Source: Spartobacteria bacterium (GTDB taxonomy: Bacteria; Verrucomicrobiota; Verrucomicrobiia; Chthoniobacterales; UBA10450). From it: a DNA stretch of 64,000 nt. The translations under genes and the position numbers were made by a program. Position 1 is the first letter of the stretch, and the number at the start of each line of letters is the position of its first letter. Under the pieces are notes generated by a model that was given only the letters and a program-made list of their open reading frames with translations, did no database searches and was not told where the DNA came from. This document shows, one piece after another, positions 51,896 to 59,819 of the stretch. Location of the stretch: the NCBI GenBank assembly GCA_003134765.1, contig PLCM01000031.1, positions 1 through 64,000 of the forward strand, given 5' to 3'.

Positions 51896-51969
51896 CGGAG
51901 TCTACGGGGCTCGAACCCGCAACCTCCGCCGTGACAGGGCGGCGCTCTAACCAATTGAGCTAAGACTCC
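51896..51969 (-). tRNA. tRNA-Asp (anticodon GTC)
   Basis: 74 bases on the minus strand. The acceptor stem GGAGTCT pairs with AGACTCC, discriminator G73. D arm AGCTCAATTGGTTAGAGC, anticodon stem CCGCC/GGCGG around loop CTGTCAC with anticodon GTC, T arm GCGGGTTCGAGCCCCGT. No CCA is encoded. A run of eight T (51894-51887 on the minus strand) follows directly and is a likely termination point. Confidence 0.97.
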
Positions 51970-52126: not shown

Positions 52127-53845
52127 ATGGAAGACGAGCGCAGCAAAGAATTCGCAGGTCCCGAGGAAGACTCGGGCCCGCGCGAGCTGAATTTACTCGA
52201 AGCTTTCGATCTCCTCGTCGCCTCGATCCCGCCAGAGAACCGCCATCGGCGTGAGCTCTACGTCATGCGCTCTCAGATTGAAGCGCAGGAAGAAACGATT
52301 GGCGAGGCTCGCCACATGATCGAAAAGCTGGAGGAAGTTATCAAGAAAGTGACTTCGCCGGCGAACCGCATCGGCACCTACCTGAGCAATCCGGCGAAGA
52401 ACACGGCCCACATCGTGGTGGGTGGCGCAGATTACTATTGCAACGTCGATCCGAGGATCAGTCTCGCGAAATTGAAAAAAGGTACGCGGGTTCTGGTGAA
52501 TGAGGCCTACGTCATCGTGGGGGATCTTGGTTTCGAAACGGCCGGGCCGGTGACGAAAATTACCGAGGTCATCGGAGACGATCGCCTCCGGGTCGGTTCG
52601 GAGCATGGACTCCAGTCATTGATTCTGCAGCGCTCGGCGGAGTTGATGAAGCTCTCGCTCAAATCCGGCGACGAAGTGCGGGTCGACCCGAATTATCGGG
52701 TCGCGCTCGAGGTTCTTTCCCAGCCGGAATCGCGCGAACATTACCTCGATGAAGTTCCCGAGCTGCCCTGGAGCAAGGTCGGCGGCCAGGACAAGGCATT
52801 ACAGGCGATCAAGGACGCGATCGAGCTGCCGCTGATTCACGCCGAGCTCTTCGAAAAGTTTCAGCACGCGACTCCAAAAGGCTTCTTGCTTTACGGCCCG
52901 CCCGGCTGCGGCAAAACGCTCATCGGGAAGGCGACGGCCTACAACCTGACGAAAAAGCTCCGCGAAAAATGCGGAGAGGAGATGAAGGAATACTTCATGC
53001 ACGTCAAAGGCCCCGAGATCCTGAACATGTGGGTCGGCGAATCGGAGCGGATCGTGCGCGAAATTTTCGCGACGGCCCGCGAGAAACGCCGCGAAGGATT
53101 CCTGCCTTTTCTCTTCATCGACGAAGCCGAAAGCATTCTGGGAACGCGGCGGGCCTCGCGTTACTCGAACATTCTCTCGACCCTGGTCCCGATGTTTTGC
53201 TCGGAGATGGACGGGATCGATTCGCTCCACGACGTCGTTATCATTCTGGCCTCCAACCGCGCGGACCTGATCGACCCCGCGATTCTGCGTCCGGGCCGGA
53301 TCGACCGTAAAATCAAAGTGAACCGGCCGAACCGGGAGGGCGCGCGTGAGATCTACCGAATTTATCTCACCAACGATCTTCCTTACGACGGCGCCCTGGC
53401 CAAGGAGGCGGGTAACCTCGGCGCCGCCATCGATCAATTGATCGAACGCGTCCTGGAAGGCCAGTTCGCCCGCCGGGAGGAAAACAAGTTTCTCGAGATC
53501 ACGCTGCGGAGCGGGCGAAAGGAAATCCTTTACCGGAGCGATCTGCTCAGCGGCGCCATCATCGCGTCGATCGTCGAGCGGGCGAAAGCGATGGCGATCA
53601 AGCGGACGATCGCGAATTCCGGAGCTGGAGTCGCCGATGCCGTCCAAAACATCGCGGGCATCAGCGAAAGCGATCTGCAACAGGCGTTCGTCGCCGAGTT
53701 CAATGAGAACGACATCTTCCCACCGACGGACATTACGGAAGATTGGTTCAAACTGATCGATTTCGATCCGGAAAACGTCGTGAAGATTTCGCCCGTGCGG
53801 CGCGACGGGCAGACGAAGCTGCCGGTTCGCGGGGTGGTGATCTAG
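52127..53845 (+). CDS. Proteasome-associated AAA ATPase (Mpa/ARC)
   Basis: 572 residues. N-terminal acidic tail, coiled coil (about 40-80: LYVMRSQIEAQEETIG, MIEKLEEVIKKV), double OB-type region (about 85-200: NPAKNTAHIVVGG, KLKKGTRVLVNEAYVIVGDLG), then one AAA domain with Walker A GPPGCGKT (257-264), pore segment MWVGESE, Walker B LFIDEAES (Asp332, Glu333), and arginine fingers in RPGRIDRKI. In actinobacteria Mpa unfolds pupylated proteins for the 20S proteasome, docking by a C-terminal QYL. Here the end is LPVRGVVI, so that tail is absent. No 20S, Pup or PafA gene is near. A dop gene follows 4.3 kb downstream. Confidence 0.92.
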   Translation: MEDERSKEFAGPEEDSGPRELNLLEAFDLLVASIPPENRHRRELYVMRSQIEAQEETIGEARHMIEKLEEVIKKVTSPANRIGTYLSNPAKNTAHIVVGGADYYCNVDPRISLAKLKKGTRVLVNEAYVIVGDLGFETAGPVTKITEVIGDDRLRVGSEHGLQSLILQRSAELMKLSLKSGDEVRVDPNYRVALEVLSQPESREHYLDEVPELPWSKVGGQDKALQAIKDAIELPLIHAELFEKFQHATPKGFLLYGPPGCGKTLIGKATAYNLTKKLREKCGEEMKEYFMHVKGPEILNMWVGESERIVREIFATAREKRREGFLPFLFIDEAESILGTRRASRYSNILSTLVPMFCSEMDGIDSLHDVVIILASNRADLIDPAILRPGRIDRKIKVNRPNREGAREIYRIYLTNDLPYDGALAKEAGNLGAAIDQLIERVLEGQFARREENKFLEITLRSGRKEILYRSDLLSGAIIASIVERAKAMAIKRTIANSGAGVADAVQNIAGISESDLQQAFVAEFNENDIFPPTDITEDWFKLIDFDPENVVKISPVRRDGQTKLPVRGVVI

Positions 53846-53863
53846 GTGGGCGATTCGGCAATC

Positions 53864-53927
53864 AAGGAGCGGCGATTTCCAAATCGCCGAACCGAATAAA
53901 ACGGCGGTTTGTAAACCGCAGCTCCTT
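53864..53927. repeat. Compact cloverleaf-like palindromic element
   Basis: Outer arms AAGGAGC (53864-53870) and GCTCCTT (53921-53927). Inside are two perfect hairpins, GGCGATTT-CC-AAATCGCC and GCGGTTT-GT-AAACCGC. It can fold as a three-way junction. Sits between the Mpa gene and the DUF885 gene. Confidence 0.85.
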
Positions 53928-53945
53928 ATGCTTAGCATCGCCACC

Positions 53946-55712
53946 ATGAGATTGATCACCGCGCTAGGTGTATTCACCGCCGTAACCTTGCTTGCCCAGC
54001 CGACGCCGGAGCCGAAGACCGACGTTTCCAACAAGGCGTTGATTACCAAATCGACCCCGGCAGCTCCGAAAGCTGGCAACGACATCGCCGCCCTCCGGAA
54101 AATTGCCGACGACTACTACGCCTGGCGGAATGAAAATTTTCCAGTCGGGAGCAGCGACGCCGGTCTCCACACCTGGGACAATCGGCTGACCGACTATTCG
54201 GCACCGAAGATCGCCGAGCGCGATCAGCATGTCCGCAAGCTACTCGACCAGGTCCGCGCGGTGCCCGCAACCAACTGGCCCAAGGACGACCGGATCGATT
54301 GGCTTCTTTTTCGCTCGCAGCTCGAGAATTCCGATTTCGGCAGTCGCGTCCTGCAATCCGAGAAGACCGATCCGCAGCTCTACATCGGCGAGTGCTCGAA
54401 CGGAATTTTTTCGCTGCTAAAAAAAGAATACGACGCACCTCGCAAACGCGCGCTCGCCGCGACCGAGCGCCTCAGGCAAATGCCGGCCATGCTAATCCAG
54501 GGCGAACGGAATCTGCAAAAACCGGTGAAGCTTTTCGCGCAGCTCGCGATCGCTTCCGCGCGCGCCATCGATCCCCTCTTTAACGACAGCCTCATGACCC
54601 TGGCGCGCGACCTCGCGCCGGATGAACACGACGCGCTCGTGAAAGCACGCGACGCCGCACTGGCGGCGATTCACAGCTTTGCCGATCGGCTCGAGAAACG
54701 CCTGCCCTCGATGGTGGATTTCGCGCCGATGGGCACCGCGAACTACAACTATTATCTCAAACACGTCCTCCTGCTTCCCCTCGACGCCGAGCAGGTCGCG
54801 ATGCTCGGCCGGGCCGAGCTGGCCCGTTACCGCGCCCTCGAGTCGCTCCTCCCAGATCCCGCGCTGGCCGATCCCGATCCGGCCCGGAGCAAGAGTATTC
54901 CGCCGGACCAGGCCTCGTTTCTCGCCGCCTACGAAAGTCGCGAGCAGGAAATGATCAGTTTCCTGAAAGAACACAAACTGGTCACAATTCCGGATTATCT
55001 CGGCCGCTTCGAGATTCGGCAATTGCCGGAAGCGTTCAAGCCAACGAGTCCCGGAGGCTTCATGAATCCGCCCGGGGTTTACGACAAAGACCCTTCGGGT
55101 TTCTTTTTCATCCCGACCTACAATCCTCAGTCGAAGAATTTTTATATCCGCGCGGCGATTGAAGACCCGCGGCCGATTCTCGGGCACGAAGGCATTCCCG
55201 GCCATTTCATGCAGCTGTCGATCGCGAACCATCTGACGAACGAAATCCGGCGTCAGCACGCCGACGGTGTTTTTGTGGAAGGCTGGGCGCTTTACGGCGA
55301 GGAGATGCTGATGCGCACCGGTCTTTACCCGGAGAACTCCGCAGCCCAGGGACAAATCCTGCGGCTTTCGCGGTATCGCTCGGCACGGATCGGGGTGGAT
55401 GTGAATCTGCACACAGGCAAATGGAGTTTCGCGCAAGCGGTCCAATACTTCATGGAGGCCGGCGGACTCGATCGCGAGGCAGCCGAGGGTGAAGCGGCTG
55501 GTGCGGCCTCGAGCCCGACCCAGAAGATCAGCTATATCGTGGGAAAATGGCAGATCATGAACCTGCTTGGCCGCTATCGAGACAAAGCCGGCGCAGACTT
55601 TCGGCTCGGGCAATTCCACGACGATTTGATCAAGAATGGCAGCCTGCCGCTTTCGATCGTCGAGTGGCTTCTCCTGGATGATCCGGCCTCGATCGAGAGC
55701 GTGATGCGGTGA
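53946..55712 (+). CDS. Exported DUF885-family putative metallopeptidase
   Basis: 588 residues from ATG 53946, with signal peptide RLITALGVFTAVTLLAQ. DUF885 marks: YYAWRNENFPVGSS near the N-terminus, zinc motif GHEGIPGHFMQL (HExxxH type), and FVEGWALYGEEM, then the C-terminal KISYIVGKWQI. Members are related to carboxypeptidase Taq/M3-like helical zinc peptidases, usually exported or lipoproteins. Substrate unknown. Between Mpa and Dop on the same strand, but the signal peptide argues against a cytosolic proteasome role. Confidence 0.85.
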   Translation: MRLITALGVFTAVTLLAQPTPEPKTDVSNKALITKSTPAAPKAGNDIAALRKIADDYYAWRNENFPVGSSDAGLHTWDNRLTDYSAPKIAERDQHVRKLLDQVRAVPATNWPKDDRIDWLLFRSQLENSDFGSRVLQSEKTDPQLYIGECSNGIFSLLKKEYDAPRKRALAATERLRQMPAMLIQGERNLQKPVKLFAQLAIASARAIDPLFNDSLMTLARDLAPDEHDALVKARDAALAAIHSFADRLEKRLPSMVDFAPMGTANYNYYLKHVLLLPLDAEQVAMLGRAELARYRALESLLPDPALADPDPARSKSIPPDQASFLAAYESREQEMISFLKEHKLVTIPDYLGRFEIRQLPEAFKPTSPGGFMNPPGVYDKDPSGFFFIPTYNPQSKNFYIRAAIEDPRPILGHEGIPGHFMQLSIANHLTNEIRRQHADGVFVEGWALYGEEMLMRTGLYPENSAAQGQILRLSRYRSARIGVDVNLHTGKWSFAQAVQYFMEAGGLDREAAEGEAAGAASSPTQKISYIVGKWQIMNLLGRYRDKAGADFRLGQFHDDLIKNGSLPLSIVEWLLLDDPASIESVMR

Positions 55713-55713
55713 A

Positions 55714-55800
55714 GGTAGGGACGGCGCGCTGCGCCGTCCGCGCGAGGAGTTAACGGCGTGATGGTGACCCACGCGGACGCCGCAGCGCGGCGTCCCTACC
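55714..55800. repeat. Inverted-repeat element (GGTAGGGAC family)
   Basis: Left arm starts GGTAGGGACGGCGCGC, right arm ends GCGCGGCGTCCCTACC. Each arm also folds on itself (GGACGGCGC-GCT-GCGCCGTCC). Same family as 62468-62521. No coding content. Sits in the gap between the DUF885 and flavoprotein genes. Confidence 0.88.
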
Positions 55801-55831
55801 AGTTTGAGCAGAGGCGCGTTAAGCTTGGCGC

Positions 55832-57031
55832 ATGGCTCCTGAAGCGAACTCCGTCCTCGTAATTGGCGGCGGGCCCGCGGGGCTGCATGCGGCGGACGTA
55901 GCGAGTGCGGCAGGCGCGCGCGTCGTCGTCTGCGACGCCCAGCACTCAATCGGGCGGAAGTTTCTCGTGGCCGGCCGGGGCGGACTAAACCTCACGCACG
56001 GCGAGCCGGTGGAACATTTCCCGGCACGTTACGTCGACGAGCCAGAACGGTGGCGTGATTTGCTGCGGGATTTCGGACCGGCGGAGTTGCGGGCGTGGGC
56101 GGCCGATCTCGGCGTGGAAACTTATGTCGGCACGAGCGGACGGGTATTTCCGCGCGGACAAAAAGCGGCCGGTCTCTTGCGCGCGTGGGTCAGACGTTCG
56201 CGCGAAAAAGGCGTCGAATTCAGAACCGGTTCCCGGTTGCTGAATTTTGCGCGCCAGGAAAACAAATGGAGCGTCGAGTTCAAAACGGCGAGCGACGGGT
56301 TCTCCGTTCCAGCCGACTCTGTCGTGCTTGCGCTGGGTGGAGCTTCCTGGCCGGAGACGGGCTCTGATGGCGCATGGCCCGAAATCCTGGCAGCGCACGG
56401 AGTCGACATCACGCCATGGCGACCGGCGAATTGCGGCTGGGAAGTCGACTGGCCCGAAGAGCTCCTCGCCCGCGCTGAAGGATTGCCGCTGAAGAATCTT
56501 ACCGTGCGCGCAGGCGAGGAATCCGTTTCCGGCGAATTGCTCGTCACCCGCCATGGGCTTGAGGGAGGCGCCATCTACCGCCTCGGTCGCACGCTTCGCT
56601 CCCTGGGCAAGCCATGCCTGGCCGTCGATTTCAAACCGCAACTCACCGTGGAGGCAATGCGCGAGCGCATCGTCAATCTGTCCACTGCCGATGAATGGTT
56701 TCGGGCCTGGAAACTAAGCATCGCCGCCATCGCGTTGCTTGAAACCATGGCACCGAATGATTCGCACGATCGCGAGCTGGCGATCGCTCGTGTGAAAAAT
56801 TTCACGGTCGCGTTGCGCGGTCCCCGTCCCATTGCCGAAGCGATTTCGTCGGCCGGGGGCGTCTCATGGAGCGAACTGGATGAAACCCTGATGCTTCGCA
56901 AGCTGCCGGGCATTTTCGTCGCGGGTGAAATGATCGATTGGGAAGCCCCGACCGGCGGCTATCTGCTCCAGGGCTGCTTCGCTACTGCGACCCGCGCGGG
57001 CCGCGCGGCGGCTTTGCATCGGCCCGGGTAA
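55832..57031 (+). CDS. FAD-dependent flavoprotein of the HI0933/BaiN-like family
   Basis: 399 residues. N-terminal dinucleotide fold VIGGGPAGLHAADVASAAG with acidic end of strand 2 (VVVCDAQ), family motif GRKFLVAGRGGLNLTHGEP, and the C-terminal FAD segment GYLLQGCFATATRAGRAAA. The inserted domain begins near residue 190. Matches the flavo_PP4765-type subgroup in length and motifs. Biochemical role unsettled: family members are linked to bile-acid or unsaturated substrate reduction or to RNA-related uses. On the same strand as Mpa and Dop without obvious functional link. Confidence 0.88.
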   Translation: MAPEANSVLVIGGGPAGLHAADVASAAGARVVVCDAQHSIGRKFLVAGRGGLNLTHGEPVEHFPARYVDEPERWRDLLRDFGPAELRAWAADLGVETYVGTSGRVFPRGQKAAGLLRAWVRRSREKGVEFRTGSRLLNFARQENKWSVEFKTASDGFSVPADSVVLALGGASWPETGSDGAWPEILAAHGVDITPWRPANCGWEVDWPEELLARAEGLPLKNLTVRAGEESVSGELLVTRHGLEGGAIYRLGRTLRSLGKPCLAVDFKPQLTVEAMRERIVNLSTADEWFRAWKLSIAAIALLETMAPNDSHDRELAIARVKNFTVALRGPRPIAEAISSAGGVSWSELDETLMLRKLPGIFVAGEMIDWEAPTGGYLLQGCFATATRAGRAAALHRPG

Positions 57032-57037
57032 GTCGCG

Positions 57038-57562
57038 CTAGATCGTGTAGTTATTACCAAGAACGAAACTCGCGGCGGCAGTGCGGTTCTCGACCCCGAG
57101 CTTGGGGAAAATCCGCTCGAGATATTTCCCGATCGTTCCAGTTTTCAGGCTCAGAATTTTGGCGATCTCGGCGTTCGTCTTGCCGCGTGCCACCCACGAA
57201 AGCACCTCGATCTGCCGTTCGGTCAGCCGGTCCCACATGCCATTCGAGCGTGCGCCCACTGTTTTACGCTCGAGCAGGACACAAATTGAGCCTGGTTCCC
57301 GGCAAACAATCTGGAAACAAAGCTGGGTTCCGGCTCGATCCAAAATAAACCGGGCAGGCCGGCTCGAGGAGACAACTTCGTCGAGCCAGCCCGCTAACGC
57401 CTCCGGCAGGCGGTCCAAGGGGGAAAACAAAAAATCCTTGAGCCAGCGTTCCGCCCGCGGAGTCATCAATTGGATCCGCCCGTCGGGAGAAACGACGAGC
57501 ATCCCCCGCTCGCTGCCGAGATCCTCAACCCCGGGCGGACACGTAGAGGGATGCAGGCTCAT
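57038..57562 (-). CDS. LuxR-type transcription factor with PAS-like sensor
   Basis: 174 residues. The N-terminal 100 residues look PAS-like (GMLVVSPDGRIQLMTPRAE, ICVLLERK). The C-terminus is a complete LuxR helix-turn-helix: LTERQIEVLSWVARGKTNAE, IAKILSLKTGTIGKYLERIF, and PKLGVENRTAAA. No receiver domain, so it is not a classical response regulator. It is divergent from the small Zn-ribbon gene, and a 16-bp inverted repeat (57656-57671) lies between them as its likely operator. Convergent with the flavoprotein gene. Confidence 0.9.
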   Translation of the reverse strand: MSLHPSTCPPGVEDLGSERGMLVVSPDGRIQLMTPRAERWLKDFLFSPLDRLPEALAGWLDEVVSSSRPARFILDRAGTQLCFQIVCREPGSICVLLERKTVGARSNGMWDRLTERQIEVLSWVARGKTNAEIAKILSLKTGTIGKYLERIFPKLGVENRTAAASFVLGNNYTI

Positions 57563-57655
57563 GTCTCTCCTAACTACGGAATTGCGGAGACGAAGTTCGG
57601 CGATTTCTCCATGAATTTCCGCTGTTCTCGGGACCAGCTGGTTTGCGGTCGTGGT

Positions 57656-57671
57656 GTAGGAATTTTCCTAC
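57656..57671. promoter_or_regulatory. Inverted repeat, candidate operator for the LuxR-type regulator
   Basis: GTAGGAA-TT-TTCCTAC, perfect 7-bp arms with a 2-base spacer, the size and symmetry expected for a LuxR dimer. It is 52 bases upstream of the gene at 57723 and 94 bases from the regulator start. Confidence 0.5.
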
Positions 57672-57722
57672 TTTACGAAATCATGCGCTCGTTTAGAGAA
57701 TATTCGGACCCCCGGGGACGCG

Positions 57723-57950
57723 ATGGCGCAATACAAGTATTCGCATTATCTAAATAGCTTTTCCGACCCGAAATTCGACCCGGCCCACCCCCCAGGGACG
57801 GTCACGCCACACACCGGCATCTACAAATGTCAGGGTTGCGGGAATGAGGTGGTCTCCATAGCCGGCGATCCACTCCCGCCCCCAAGTCACCATCAACATT
57901 CCCTCACCCAGGGCGACAGGGCGTGGCGATTGATCGTGGCAACGACGTGA
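57723..57950 (+). CDS. Small Zn-ribbon-like protein
   Basis: 75 residues. The product reads PPGTVTPHTGIYKCQGCGNE, VVSIAGDPLPPPSHHQHS, then RAWRLIV. A CxxC knuckle plus a later HHQH cluster could bind one zinc as in short rubredoxin-like folds. A central Pro-rich loop separates them. No enzyme or known DNA-binding motif. Family not known to me, though the layout recalls small phage- or stress-encoded zinc-ribbon proteins. Divergent from the LuxR-type regulator with a palindrome between, so probably its target. Not a Pup: it lacks a C-terminal GGE or GGQ. Confidence 0.65.
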   Translation: MAQYKYSHYLNSFSDPKFDPAHPPGTVTPHTGIYKCQGCGNEVVSIAGDPLPPPSHHQHSLTQGDRAWRLIVATT

Positions 57951-57954
57951 GGCG

Positions 57955-58113
57955 TGTCATCCCGAGGCTGGCGAAGCGCGCCGAGGGGACCCCCGGGCGG
58001 TCTGACGCTACCGCGATATTCGCGCCTCTTCGGAACGCAGGGCCTATTCTTCGCTTGCGTGATTGAACTTGCAGCTGCGAGGTCCCTCGCCGTCTGCGCG
58101 GCTCGGGATGACA
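57955..58113. repeat. Inverted-repeat element upstream of dop
   Basis: Ends TGTCATCCCGAG (57955) and CTCGGGATGACA (58113) are complementary. The right arm GAGGTCCCTCGCCGTCTGCG is almost identical to the right arm of 59665-59819. The element ends 33 bases before the dop ATG. Confidence 0.85.
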
Positions 58114-58146
58114 CCGTTGCATTCCCGGGGTTATCTTGGGTTCACA

Positions 58147-59661
58147 ATGAAACGGGTGTTCGGCCTTGAAACAGAATACGGCATCACGATTCAAGGCGCC
58201 GCTTCCGTTGACGTCGTGGCCGAATCGATCGAGCTGGTGCGCTCCTATACCGAGCATGGCGCCCACATGAAATGGGATTACCGACTCGAAGATCCGCATC
58301 GCGATGCGCGGGGCTTTCGCGCCCCATCCCTGCTCCAGGACACGGACGAATCGGCCTATTATGAAATCGACCACAATCGGCCGCTCAGTTTCGAAGAGAT
58401 CAAGAGCGACCTCGTGCTGTCGAACGGCGCCCGTTTTTACAACGACCACGCCCACCCGGAATATTCCACGCCGGAATGCACCACCCTGCGGCAGATCGTG
58501 GCGCACGAAAAAGCAGGCGAGCGCATCATGGCGGAGTGCGCACGGCGCAGAAATCTGAAACTGACGGACGGCACGGAGGTCCGCCTCTTCAAGAACAACA
58601 CTGACTTCGCCGGGCATAGTTACGGTTGCCACGACAATTATCTGATTCGACGGGATCTCCCCTGGGACGAACTGGTCGCGGGCGTGCTCCCGTTTCTGAT
58701 TACCCGCCAGATCTTCGCCGGCGCGGGCAAGCTCGGCATCGAGGCAGAAATTACGGGAACCCAGCCGTGCGTCTTTCAAATTTCGCAGCGGGCCGATTTT
58801 TTCACCACGCTCGTCAGCATTGACACGATGAACAAGCGCCCGCTGGTCAACACGCGGGATGAGCCGCACGCCGACGCCAGCCGCTATCGGCGGTTCCATG
58901 TCATCATCGGCGATTCAAACATGAGCGAATGGGCCACGGCGCTGAAGATCGGAACGACGGCGCTGGTGCTCGACCTGATCGAGCGGGGAAAAGCGCCCCA
59001 GCTCGAAATCGCGCAACCGGTTAACGCCACGAAATCGATCAGCCGCGACCAGGATTACGATTGGATCATCGAACTCAGTGATGGACGAAAGATATCCGCA
59101 ATCGATATCCAGCGGCTCTACCTTCAAGCCGCGGAGCGCGAGAATCGCGACGACTCGGAGACTTCATGGCTGCTGCGCGAGTGGGAAAACGTCTTGAACG
59201 ATCTGGAACGGGATGTGACTACGACCGCGGACCGCGTGGACTGGGCCGCGAAGAAGTTCATGCTTTCGTCATTTCGTGAGGAGGAGAAGCTGGCGTGGAG
59301 CGACCCATGGTTACAGGCGATCGACCTCGAATATCACAACATTCAGCCGGACCAGGGATTGTTTTACGAACTCCAACGCCAGGGATCGATACGCAGCCTG
59401 ATCAGCGACAAGGAAATCAAGGACGCCATCTTTACCCCGCCGGAAACGACCCGGGCCTATTTCCGCGGCCGGGCCGTGGCGCGATTCAATCACGCCATCA
59501 GCTCGATCCAGTGGGATGAGATTGGGTTCTCGGACGGAAAGAGATCCCGTGTCGTGAAGCTCCCGGAACCAGCGGGCGATGAGCGACTCGGTGCATTGAA
59601 TGAACTGGTCAATGCTGAGATGGAGTTCGACGATTTTTTTCACGGCCTCGCCCGTTATTAA
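58147..59661 (+). CDS. dop: Pup deamidase/depupylase-like protein (Dop)
   Basis: 504 residues from ATG 58147. GTG/ATG options upstream only extend into the repeat. Carboxylate-amine ligase (glutamine-synthetase-like) fold: VFGLETEYGIT with Glu8 and Glu10, MKWDYRLEDPHRDARGF, NGARFYNDHAHPEYSTPE with Asp100 at the position of the catalytic Dop Asp, LFKNNTDFAGHSYGCHDNY, NTRDEPHADASRYRR, and YFRGRAVARF. These point to Dop and not the PafA ligase. Dop activates Pup-Gln and removes Pup from proteins. Flanked by related inverted repeats on both sides. No pup gene found in the window. Confidence 0.93.
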   Translation: MKRVFGLETEYGITIQGAASVDVVAESIELVRSYTEHGAHMKWDYRLEDPHRDARGFRAPSLLQDTDESAYYEIDHNRPLSFEEIKSDLVLSNGARFYNDHAHPEYSTPECTTLRQIVAHEKAGERIMAECARRRNLKLTDGTEVRLFKNNTDFAGHSYGCHDNYLIRRDLPWDELVAGVLPFLITRQIFAGAGKLGIEAEITGTQPCVFQISQRADFFTTLVSIDTMNKRPLVNTRDEPHADASRYRRFHVIIGDSNMSEWATALKIGTTALVLDLIERGKAPQLEIAQPVNATKSISRDQDYDWIIELSDGRKISAIDIQRLYLQAAERENRDDSETSWLLREWENVLNDLERDVTTTADRVDWAAKKFMLSSFREEEKLAWSDPWLQAIDLEYHNIQPDQGLFYELQRQGSIRSLISDKEIKDAIFTPPETTRAYFRGRAVARFNHAISSIQWDEIGFSDGKRSRVVKLPEPAGDERLGALNELVNAEMEFDDFFHGLARY

Positions 59662-59664
59662 GTA

Positions 59665-59819
59665 GTCATCCCGGGTCGCGTAGACGGCGAGGGACCTCCC
59701 AACTGCAAATCGTGTCACTCAATAGATGGCAACGCGCCACCCAACGAAAACGCATGACATATCGCGGAAGCGTCAGATCGCCTGAGAGGTCCCTCGCCGT
59801 CTACGCGACTCGGGATGAC
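59665..59819. repeat. Inverted-repeat element downstream of dop
   Basis: Left arm GTCATCCCGGGTCGCGTAGA...GAGGGACCTC pairs with right arm GAGGTCCCTCGCCGTCTACG...GGGATGAC ending 59819. Starts 4 bases after the dop stop. It fills nearly all the gap to the phosphorylase gene, leaving no room for pup here. Confidence 0.88.

Follow-up and report, generated by a model that had tools for sequence, protein, structure and literature searches.

A dispersed UBact-type proteasome system in a verrucomicrobial genome and the conserved tyrosine-free tail of its Mpa ATPase

Introduction

The closest described relatives of the system analysed here are the actinobacterial Pup-proteasome, for which PMC3511204 reports a rigidly conserved gene order, and the UBact or Gram-negative proteasome of verrucomicrobia, nitrospirae and armatimonadetes. 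A verrucomicrobial Pup, including Methylacidiphilum orthologues (PMC2588565), and a Methylacidiphilum proteasome (PMC2474590) have been in print since 2008; according to the former source pup always adjoins a pafA gene. A Gram-negative 20S subcluster is described in PMC5666114. In the literature consulted, the penultimate tyrosine of the C-terminus is regarded as a docking determinant shared by proteasomal ATPases. Here we analyse a stretch of 64,000 nucleotides from a Spartobacteria bacterium of soil (contig PLCM01000031.1 of assembly GCA_003134765.1, positions 1 to 64,000; hereafter the window), which encodes a proteasome-type Mpa/ARC ATPase and a Dop-like enzyme.

An original prediction, made from the letters of the window alone, proposed a dispersed or reduced tagging system whose ATPase is without the Mpa docking tail and either no longer docks on a canonical 20S particle or docks by another route. 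By homology the window belongs to a UBact (Gram-negative Pup-type) proteasome system whose genes are dispersed, with a homologue for every core part in the same genome. With a probability of roughly two in three (0.68), Mpa would be the unfoldase, and Dop the depupylase, in a complete but dispersed UBact pathway that uses a tyrosine-free Val-Ile/Val docking tail. Verrucomicrobial systems of this kind have been on record since 2008; what is new is the conserved tyrosine-free tail of Mpa.

Results and Discussion

Mpa and Dop in the window and the rest of the pathway in the genome

The intact mpa/arc gene (52127..53845, plus strand) encodes a proteasomal AAA ATPase of 572 amino acids, in which Pfam detects the proteasomal-ATPase OB domains and the AAA domain (PF17758, PF16450, PF00004). 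TIGR03689 is its best model (457.8 bits, E 4.5e-137), yet the score lies under the curated cut-off of 504.75. The solved mycobacterial Mpa aligns with residues 54-555 of the window protein (E 1e-101). Conservation was read from 13 aligned sequences, the window's included, in all of which the Walker A motif GPPGCGKT (residues 257-264; 52895..52918, plus strand) and the Walker B Asp-Glu pair (residues 332-333; 53120..53125, plus strand) are invariant. The protein is a complete Mpa-like AAA protein, as predicted.

The dop gene (58147..59661, plus strand), encoding a depupylase/deamidase of 504 amino acids, is assigned by a tree discussed below and by TIGR03688, with 493.6 bits just over the cut-off of 492.3. 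The frame is open from TTG 58063, but the likely start is ATG 58147 (MKRVFGLETEYG) because the solved Dop aligns from that methionine. Asp100 of the predicted complete enzyme, on the same strand as mpa, is correct if numbered from this start. The Mpa and Dop matches are strong homologies for which chance is excluded.

Within the window the UBact model gives nothing significant (best 14.9 bits against a cut-off of 35), and Dop is the sole match of PF00227 and PF03136, in agreement with the earlier statement that no tag, ligase or 20S gene is present there. We then turned to the genome, a 4.05-Mb draft of 41 contigs that is 93.93% complete and carries the window on contig C21. A search for prcA/prcB, pafA and a UBact-like gene recovered two further loci: contig C27 carries ubact-prcB-prcA, and contig C40 a putative gene of PafA type. 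The UBact model has one match over its cut-off (79 bits versus 35), a protein of 56 amino acids ending in RQRTGQ and encoded directly upstream of the 20S genes. The two proteins over the Pfam cut-off of PF00227 are adjacent on C27; PrcB scores 171.9 bits and PrcA 88.7 bits, and TIGR03690 and TIGR03691 are the best models, although the proteins stay under the cut-offs of both. Each pair in the order ubact-prcB-prcA overlaps by 4 bases (L011 8018-9761, minus strand). After a propeptide PrcB reads TTILAFKFQGG...AGDRRAT...DRADK, so that Thr1, Asp17 and Lys33 are present (active-site residues were read for the window genome only). PF03136 detects two proteins in the genome, the window Dop and a second one on C40 (416 bits, Pup_ligase).

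The pathway genes are thus spread over three contigs (C21, C27 and C40) and do not share one neighbourhood. As mpa lies ~52 kb and the C40 Pup_ligase gene ~67 kb from the nearest contig end, the gene blocks are far apart, and the other parts are found on other contigs rather than in a pup-prcBA-pafA cluster just outside the window. Of the two forms of tagging system that had been proposed, the dispersed one is borne out, as the genome encodes the tag, both 20S subunits and another Pup_ligase-family enzyme outside the window. The reduced one fails, since each core part has a homologue in the same genome; UBact, PrcB, PrcA and the second Pup_ligase protein likewise rule out a 20S-less system.

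Other partners were considered separately. Neither HslV nor Anbu was found in the genome as a partner for Mpa, because it holds only two PF00227 proteins. A second PAN/Cdc48-like activator was likewise rejected, the sole other TIGR03689 match in the genome being FtsH-like by eye.

A conserved tyrosine-free tail on Mpa

The window Mpa ends in LPVRGVVI. Its C-terminal tail VRRDGQTKLPVRGVVI (53795..53842, plus strand) consists of a variable linker and a conserved end. Tails were sought in 98 loci, 86 of which were read by pattern, giving 67 distinct sequences. The 12 rows outside the pattern comprise four that deviate at a single residue and likewise have VI at the end (L040, L065, L186, L188), seven cut by contig ends (L049, L057, L063, L068, L069, L070, L073) and L059, which was left out as its mpa frame continues into dop. 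Among the 67 distinct tails the last residue is Ile in 59 and Val in 8, and the penultimate one Val in 61 and Ile in 6. Both positions encoded by the last two codons (Val-Ile in the window; 53837..53842, plus strand) are therefore Val or Ile in 67/67, and an aromatic residue (Tyr, Phe or Trp) is found at -2 in 0/67. Position -3 is chiefly Gly (38), Ala (8) or Ser (5), with scattered residues further back.

To describe selection on the tail we used pooled, uncorrected pairwise values of nonsynonymous (pN) and synonymous (pS) differences over 73 distinct DNA versions. For the two terminal codons pS is 0.64 and pN 0.11 (pN/pS 0.17), for the linker (-12 to -5) pS is 0.72 and pN 0.66 (pN/pS 0.93), and for the 19 codons that precede the tail pN/pS is 0.11. 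Since pS is similar in the end and in the linker, conservation of the end exceeds mere recent ancestry. Short docking motifs typically combine a conserved end with a freely drifting linker, which suggests such a role here.

The actinobacterial Mpa controls from Nonomuraea and Tsukamurella end in GQYL. The statement that the Mpa docking tail is missing holds in so far as QYL is absent, but the tail is not eroded, with Val or Ile conserved at both terminal positions throughout. No relative read ends in QYL, and truncation of the window Mpa is ruled out by relatives' tails with the same Val/Ile end.

The alpha-subunit pocket and the hairpin contact

In a mycobacterial complex with Bpa described in PMC11953334, the tyrosine of GQYL touches Arg26 of the alpha subunit and the leucine touches Lys52. 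The GQYL of Mpa is reported to be placed somewhat differently from that of PafE/Bpa (PMC9599533), while the salt bridge between tail carboxylate and lysine is reviewed as general in PMC12288473; the archaeal equivalent of this lysine is K66 (PMC10349882). We compared these positions in PrcA. Loci were given for 30 of the 48 PrcA matches, and 28 of the 30 passed the open reading frame (ORF) filter; with 10 others this made 38 rows, 35 of them distinct. The alignment is gap-free near R26 and has a two-residue gap before K52, which is placed by the conserved K..E.YD after it.

The K52-equivalent position is Lys in 35/35 distinct sequences of the window's class. At the R26-equivalent position Arg occurs in 0/35, the residues being Ala (9), Thr (8), Pro (8), Ser (5), Gly (3), Gln (1) and Val (1). 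Two further PrcA proteins (L136 and L150) agree, with Ala and Ser at the R26 place and Lys at the K52 place. Both Arg (R26) and Lys (K52) are present in the alpha subunits of M. tuberculosis and Nonomuraea. Because the pocket lysine is kept and the tyrosine-contacting arginine is gone, the likeliest arrangement is the same alpha pocket with a changed plug. The idea of docking by another route is therefore right only in part: the arginine is gone, but the pocket lysine for the carboxylate is retained.

PMC9599533 also describes a contact of the mycobacterial Mpa hairpin 501-ANGDK-505 with the alpha ring. In the alignment with the solved Mpa its place is taken by the beta-grasp hairpin RSGRK (residues 461-465; 53507..53521, plus strand), the first four residues of which are invariant in the 13 aligned sequences. 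The exchange of ANGDK for RSGRK implies that the second alpha-ring contact is changed as well.

Gene order and co-occurrence in relatives

Whole-genome searches were confined to the window's own phylum, with a phylum sample of 288 genomes and an order sample of 117. UBact occurs in 10/288 genomes of the phylum sample; Mpa is found in those same 10, and two Pup_ligase genes in 10/10. Six of these, from a sister family (f8), carry the single cluster mpa-dop-ubact-prcB-prcA-pafA and an Mpa tail of the same type as the window's. The four from the window's order carry the blocks mpa+dop, ubact+prcB+prcA and pafA; in G257 pafA and prcA lie ~4 kb apart on opposite strands, and in the other three pafA is on the contig of neither block. 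Dispersal is thus a feature of the window's order.

Among 61 related Mpa loci, dop lies downstream of mpa on the same strand in 41, with a gap of <=700 bases in 30, of 700-2500 in 4 and of >2500 in 7. No dop is seen in 8/61 despite >3 kb of downstream DNA, and 12/61 were counted as too short downstream, among them L026, where dop is visible up to residue 31. As the gaps range from <=700 to >2500 bases across the 41 loci, the 4.3-kb gap of the window fits into a continuum of break-up. In the order sample PrcA is found in 48/117 genomes and Mpa in 44/117, and all 44 Mpa genomes have PrcA. Pathway parts can stay together in genomes after the cluster has broken up.

The end of UBact itself varies (L132-L161 and L076-L084): it is TGQ in 22/26 and TGE in 4/26 of the order loci read, and both forms occur among the ten phylum genomes. 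As both ends occur, the need for deamidation of UBact by Dop seems to switch often.

Assignment of the second Pup_ligase-family enzyme

The C40 enzyme scores 314.4 bits with the PafA model and 303.9 with the Dop model, a margin of 10.5, and does not reach the PafA cut-off of 551.3; by such scores alone it would not be called a PafA. Its NG(A/G/S)R motif, shared by both enzymes, lies at residue 63, compared with 57 in the solved PafA and 87 in the solved Dop; from this position the Dop-loop, which serves in PMC7947786 as the criterion separating Dop from PafA, is missing. In f8 the equivalents of the C40 enzyme follow prcA, the position of actinobacterial pafA in PMC3511204. A tree of 17 rows separates ten mpa-adjacent Dop proteins and two actinobacterial Dop proteins from five second copies by a branch with 100/100 support. 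The missing Dop-loop, the cluster position in f8 and the tree speak for a putative PafA-type ligase.

Comparison with known systems

A possible parallel for the tail is HslU, which docks on HslV by an aliphatic, tyrosine-free C-terminus. Here the protease is a different one, and no HslV was found in the window genome in the PF00227 search. With the HbYX (hydrophobic, tyrosine, any residue) tails of PAN and the eukaryotic Rpt ATPases, the Mpa tails share a hydrophobic C-terminal end and probably the pairing of the carboxylate with an alpha lysine (K66 in archaea; PMC10349882), but the penultimate tyrosine is lacking in the window's class.

The system is like the actinobacterial Pup-proteasome in having homologues of the same six parts, a tag ending in Gln or Glu, an Mpa with OB and AAA domains and the alpha pocket lysine, and the f8 order matches the actinobacterial one given in PMC3511204. 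It differs in the use of UBact as tag, in the tail (Val-Ile/Val, not GQYL), in the absence of Arg at the R26-equivalent position, in the hairpin (RSGRK, not ANGDK) and in an Mpa that scores under the TIGR03689 cut-off in all genomes where Mpa was found. The separate gene blocks of the window's order depart from the conserved gene order of PMC3511204, and the pup-pafA rule stated in PMC2588565 does not extend to G000, G013 and G166, where the tag gene lies away from pafA. With the UBact or Gram-negative proteasome the system shares UBact (NF033388, PF20513) and a divergent 20S core.

Proposed mechanism and alternatives

The analysis directly shows which genes are present, that they co-occur, that the tail is under selection and which residues occupy the pocket positions. 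The enzyme activities, insertion of the tail in the pocket and opening of the gate are inferred from what is known of these families. Judged by its family, Dop would convert the C-terminal Gln of UBact to Glu and also remove the tag, and the PafA-type ligase encoded on C40 would attach UBact to substrate lysines. A hexamer of Mpa may then capture the tag with its N-terminal coiled coil, unfold the substrate and feed it into the PrcA/PrcB 20S core. Mpa would dock on the alpha ring by a tail ending in Val-Ile/Val in place of Gly-Gln-Tyr-Leu, with the tail carboxylate pairing with the alpha lysine (mycobacterial K52). The contact between tyrosine and R26 would be missing on both sides, with an aliphatic plug as its substitute, and docking is probably aided by the basic beta-grasp hairpin RSGRK on the alpha ring.

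We consider the odds about even that verrucomicrobial proteasomes use a second docking code, in which a tyrosine-free Val-Ile/Val end enters the alpha pocket via its carboxylate and aliphatic side chain and the Tyr-Arg26 contact is absent in both partners. If so, gate opening may not need the tyrosine bridge of the HbYX/GQYL models. A lineage with a selected tyrosine-free tail, the alpha lysine kept and the arginine absent provides a natural experiment on the requirements for docking and gate opening.

Several points weigh against this proposal. Mpa scores under the TIGR03689 equivalog cut-off, and PafA, PrcA and PrcB under theirs. The PafA-type ligase is the weakest assignment: against solved structures the C40 enzyme matches Dop first (249.8 bits) and PafA with 223.5 bits, and the name is given by exclusion because the tree is without actinobacterial PafA and without five of the ten second copies (L106-L109 and L111), which did not pass the motif filter. 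The change of tyrosine and arginine is not independent statistical co-variation because it is a single contrast, actinobacteria versus the window's class, and such a two-lineage contrast cannot separate cause from descent. No Mpa match was obtained in 4/48 PrcA-bearing order genomes (drafts, 74-96% complete), and in 2/30 order loci (L154 and L160) neither prcB nor ubact was seen within 1.5 kb next to prcA. Finally, the tail could bind another ligand, and another 20S activator or protease could have been overlooked, as the genome is 94% complete.

The main rival assigns the selected Val-Ile end a role outside the pocket, such as packing into the Mpa ring, binding of an adaptor or protection of the C-terminus, while the hairpin mainly holds the 20S core. 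The mycobacterial hairpin does contact the alpha ring (PMC9599533), it is altered here from ANGDK to RSGRK, and the tail of the free mycobacterial ring is described as tucked into the channel (PMC8142254); however, docking tails usually look like this, with a fast-drifting linker before a conserved extreme C-terminus, and every PrcA read has the lysine on which the carboxylate would land. On balance we regard this explanation as unlikely, if the most serious of those considered.

Slightly less probable still is that we are dealing with the known UBact system, with a tail that is no more than a trivial, clade-specific version of the usual motif and is familiar to specialists. The verrucomicrobial Pup (PMC2588565), the Methylacidiphilum proteasome (PMC2474590) and the Gram-negative 20S subcluster (PMC5666114) speak for such a reading. 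Against it, the open-licence literature searched yielded no description of a tyrosine-free Mpa tail, of the Val-Ile end or of the R26 change, and the passages concerned call the penultimate tyrosine the main or a shared determinant.

A stand-alone Mpa unfoldase has been proposed for actinobacteria without 20S genes. An equivalent ATPase here, uncoupled from the 20S core and unfolding UBact-tagged proteins while PrcA/PrcB act alone, would fit the distance of mpa from prcB and prcA in the window's order and the absent canonical tail, but is very improbable given PrcA in 44/44 Mpa-positive order genomes, a tail that is constrained and not decayed, and the six relatives that combine a single gene cluster with the same tail type.

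Surroundings of the locus and further observations

A tRNA-Asp gene of opposite orientation (51896-51969, minus strand) closely precedes mpa. As predicted, four unrelated genes fill the 4.3-kb gap between mpa and dop: the ORF list and Pfam give four ORFs without link to the pathway (53928..57950), namely a DUF885 protein, an HI0933-like flavoprotein, a minus-strand LuxR-type regulator and a 75-amino-acid ORF, for which Pfam gave no match.

Two relatives carry unusual mpa genes. The Mpa of L044 (10001-11746) has an in-frame insertion HPERSASEVEGSRDETLRE... after IKRAIA, between the AAA domain and the last helix, which by eye looks like the translated copy of a repetitive extragenic palindromic (REP)-like repeat. 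In L059 (2000-5104) the open mpa frame that continues into dop spans 1034 amino acids and represents either a natural fusion or a sequencing frameshift. Searches for Mpa gave only two distant AAA matches in viral contigs and only two partial matches in phages; two phage-type giants, L128 (a 482-kb IMG/VR contig) and LR756500.1 (a 462-kb phage record), encode an AAA ATPase that is 34-38% identical to part of Mpa.

In the window a REP-like palindromic repeat lies upstream of dop (57957..58113), and a second copy with 37-nucleotide arms that are 95% complementary lies downstream of it (59665..59819). The core motif of the repeat has 5 matches in the window, compared with 0.75 on average over 20 mononucleotide shuffles, and two further matches are located just 3' of pafA on C40 (L003 8055 and 8126). 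REP-like repeats may have contributed to the dispersal of the cluster.

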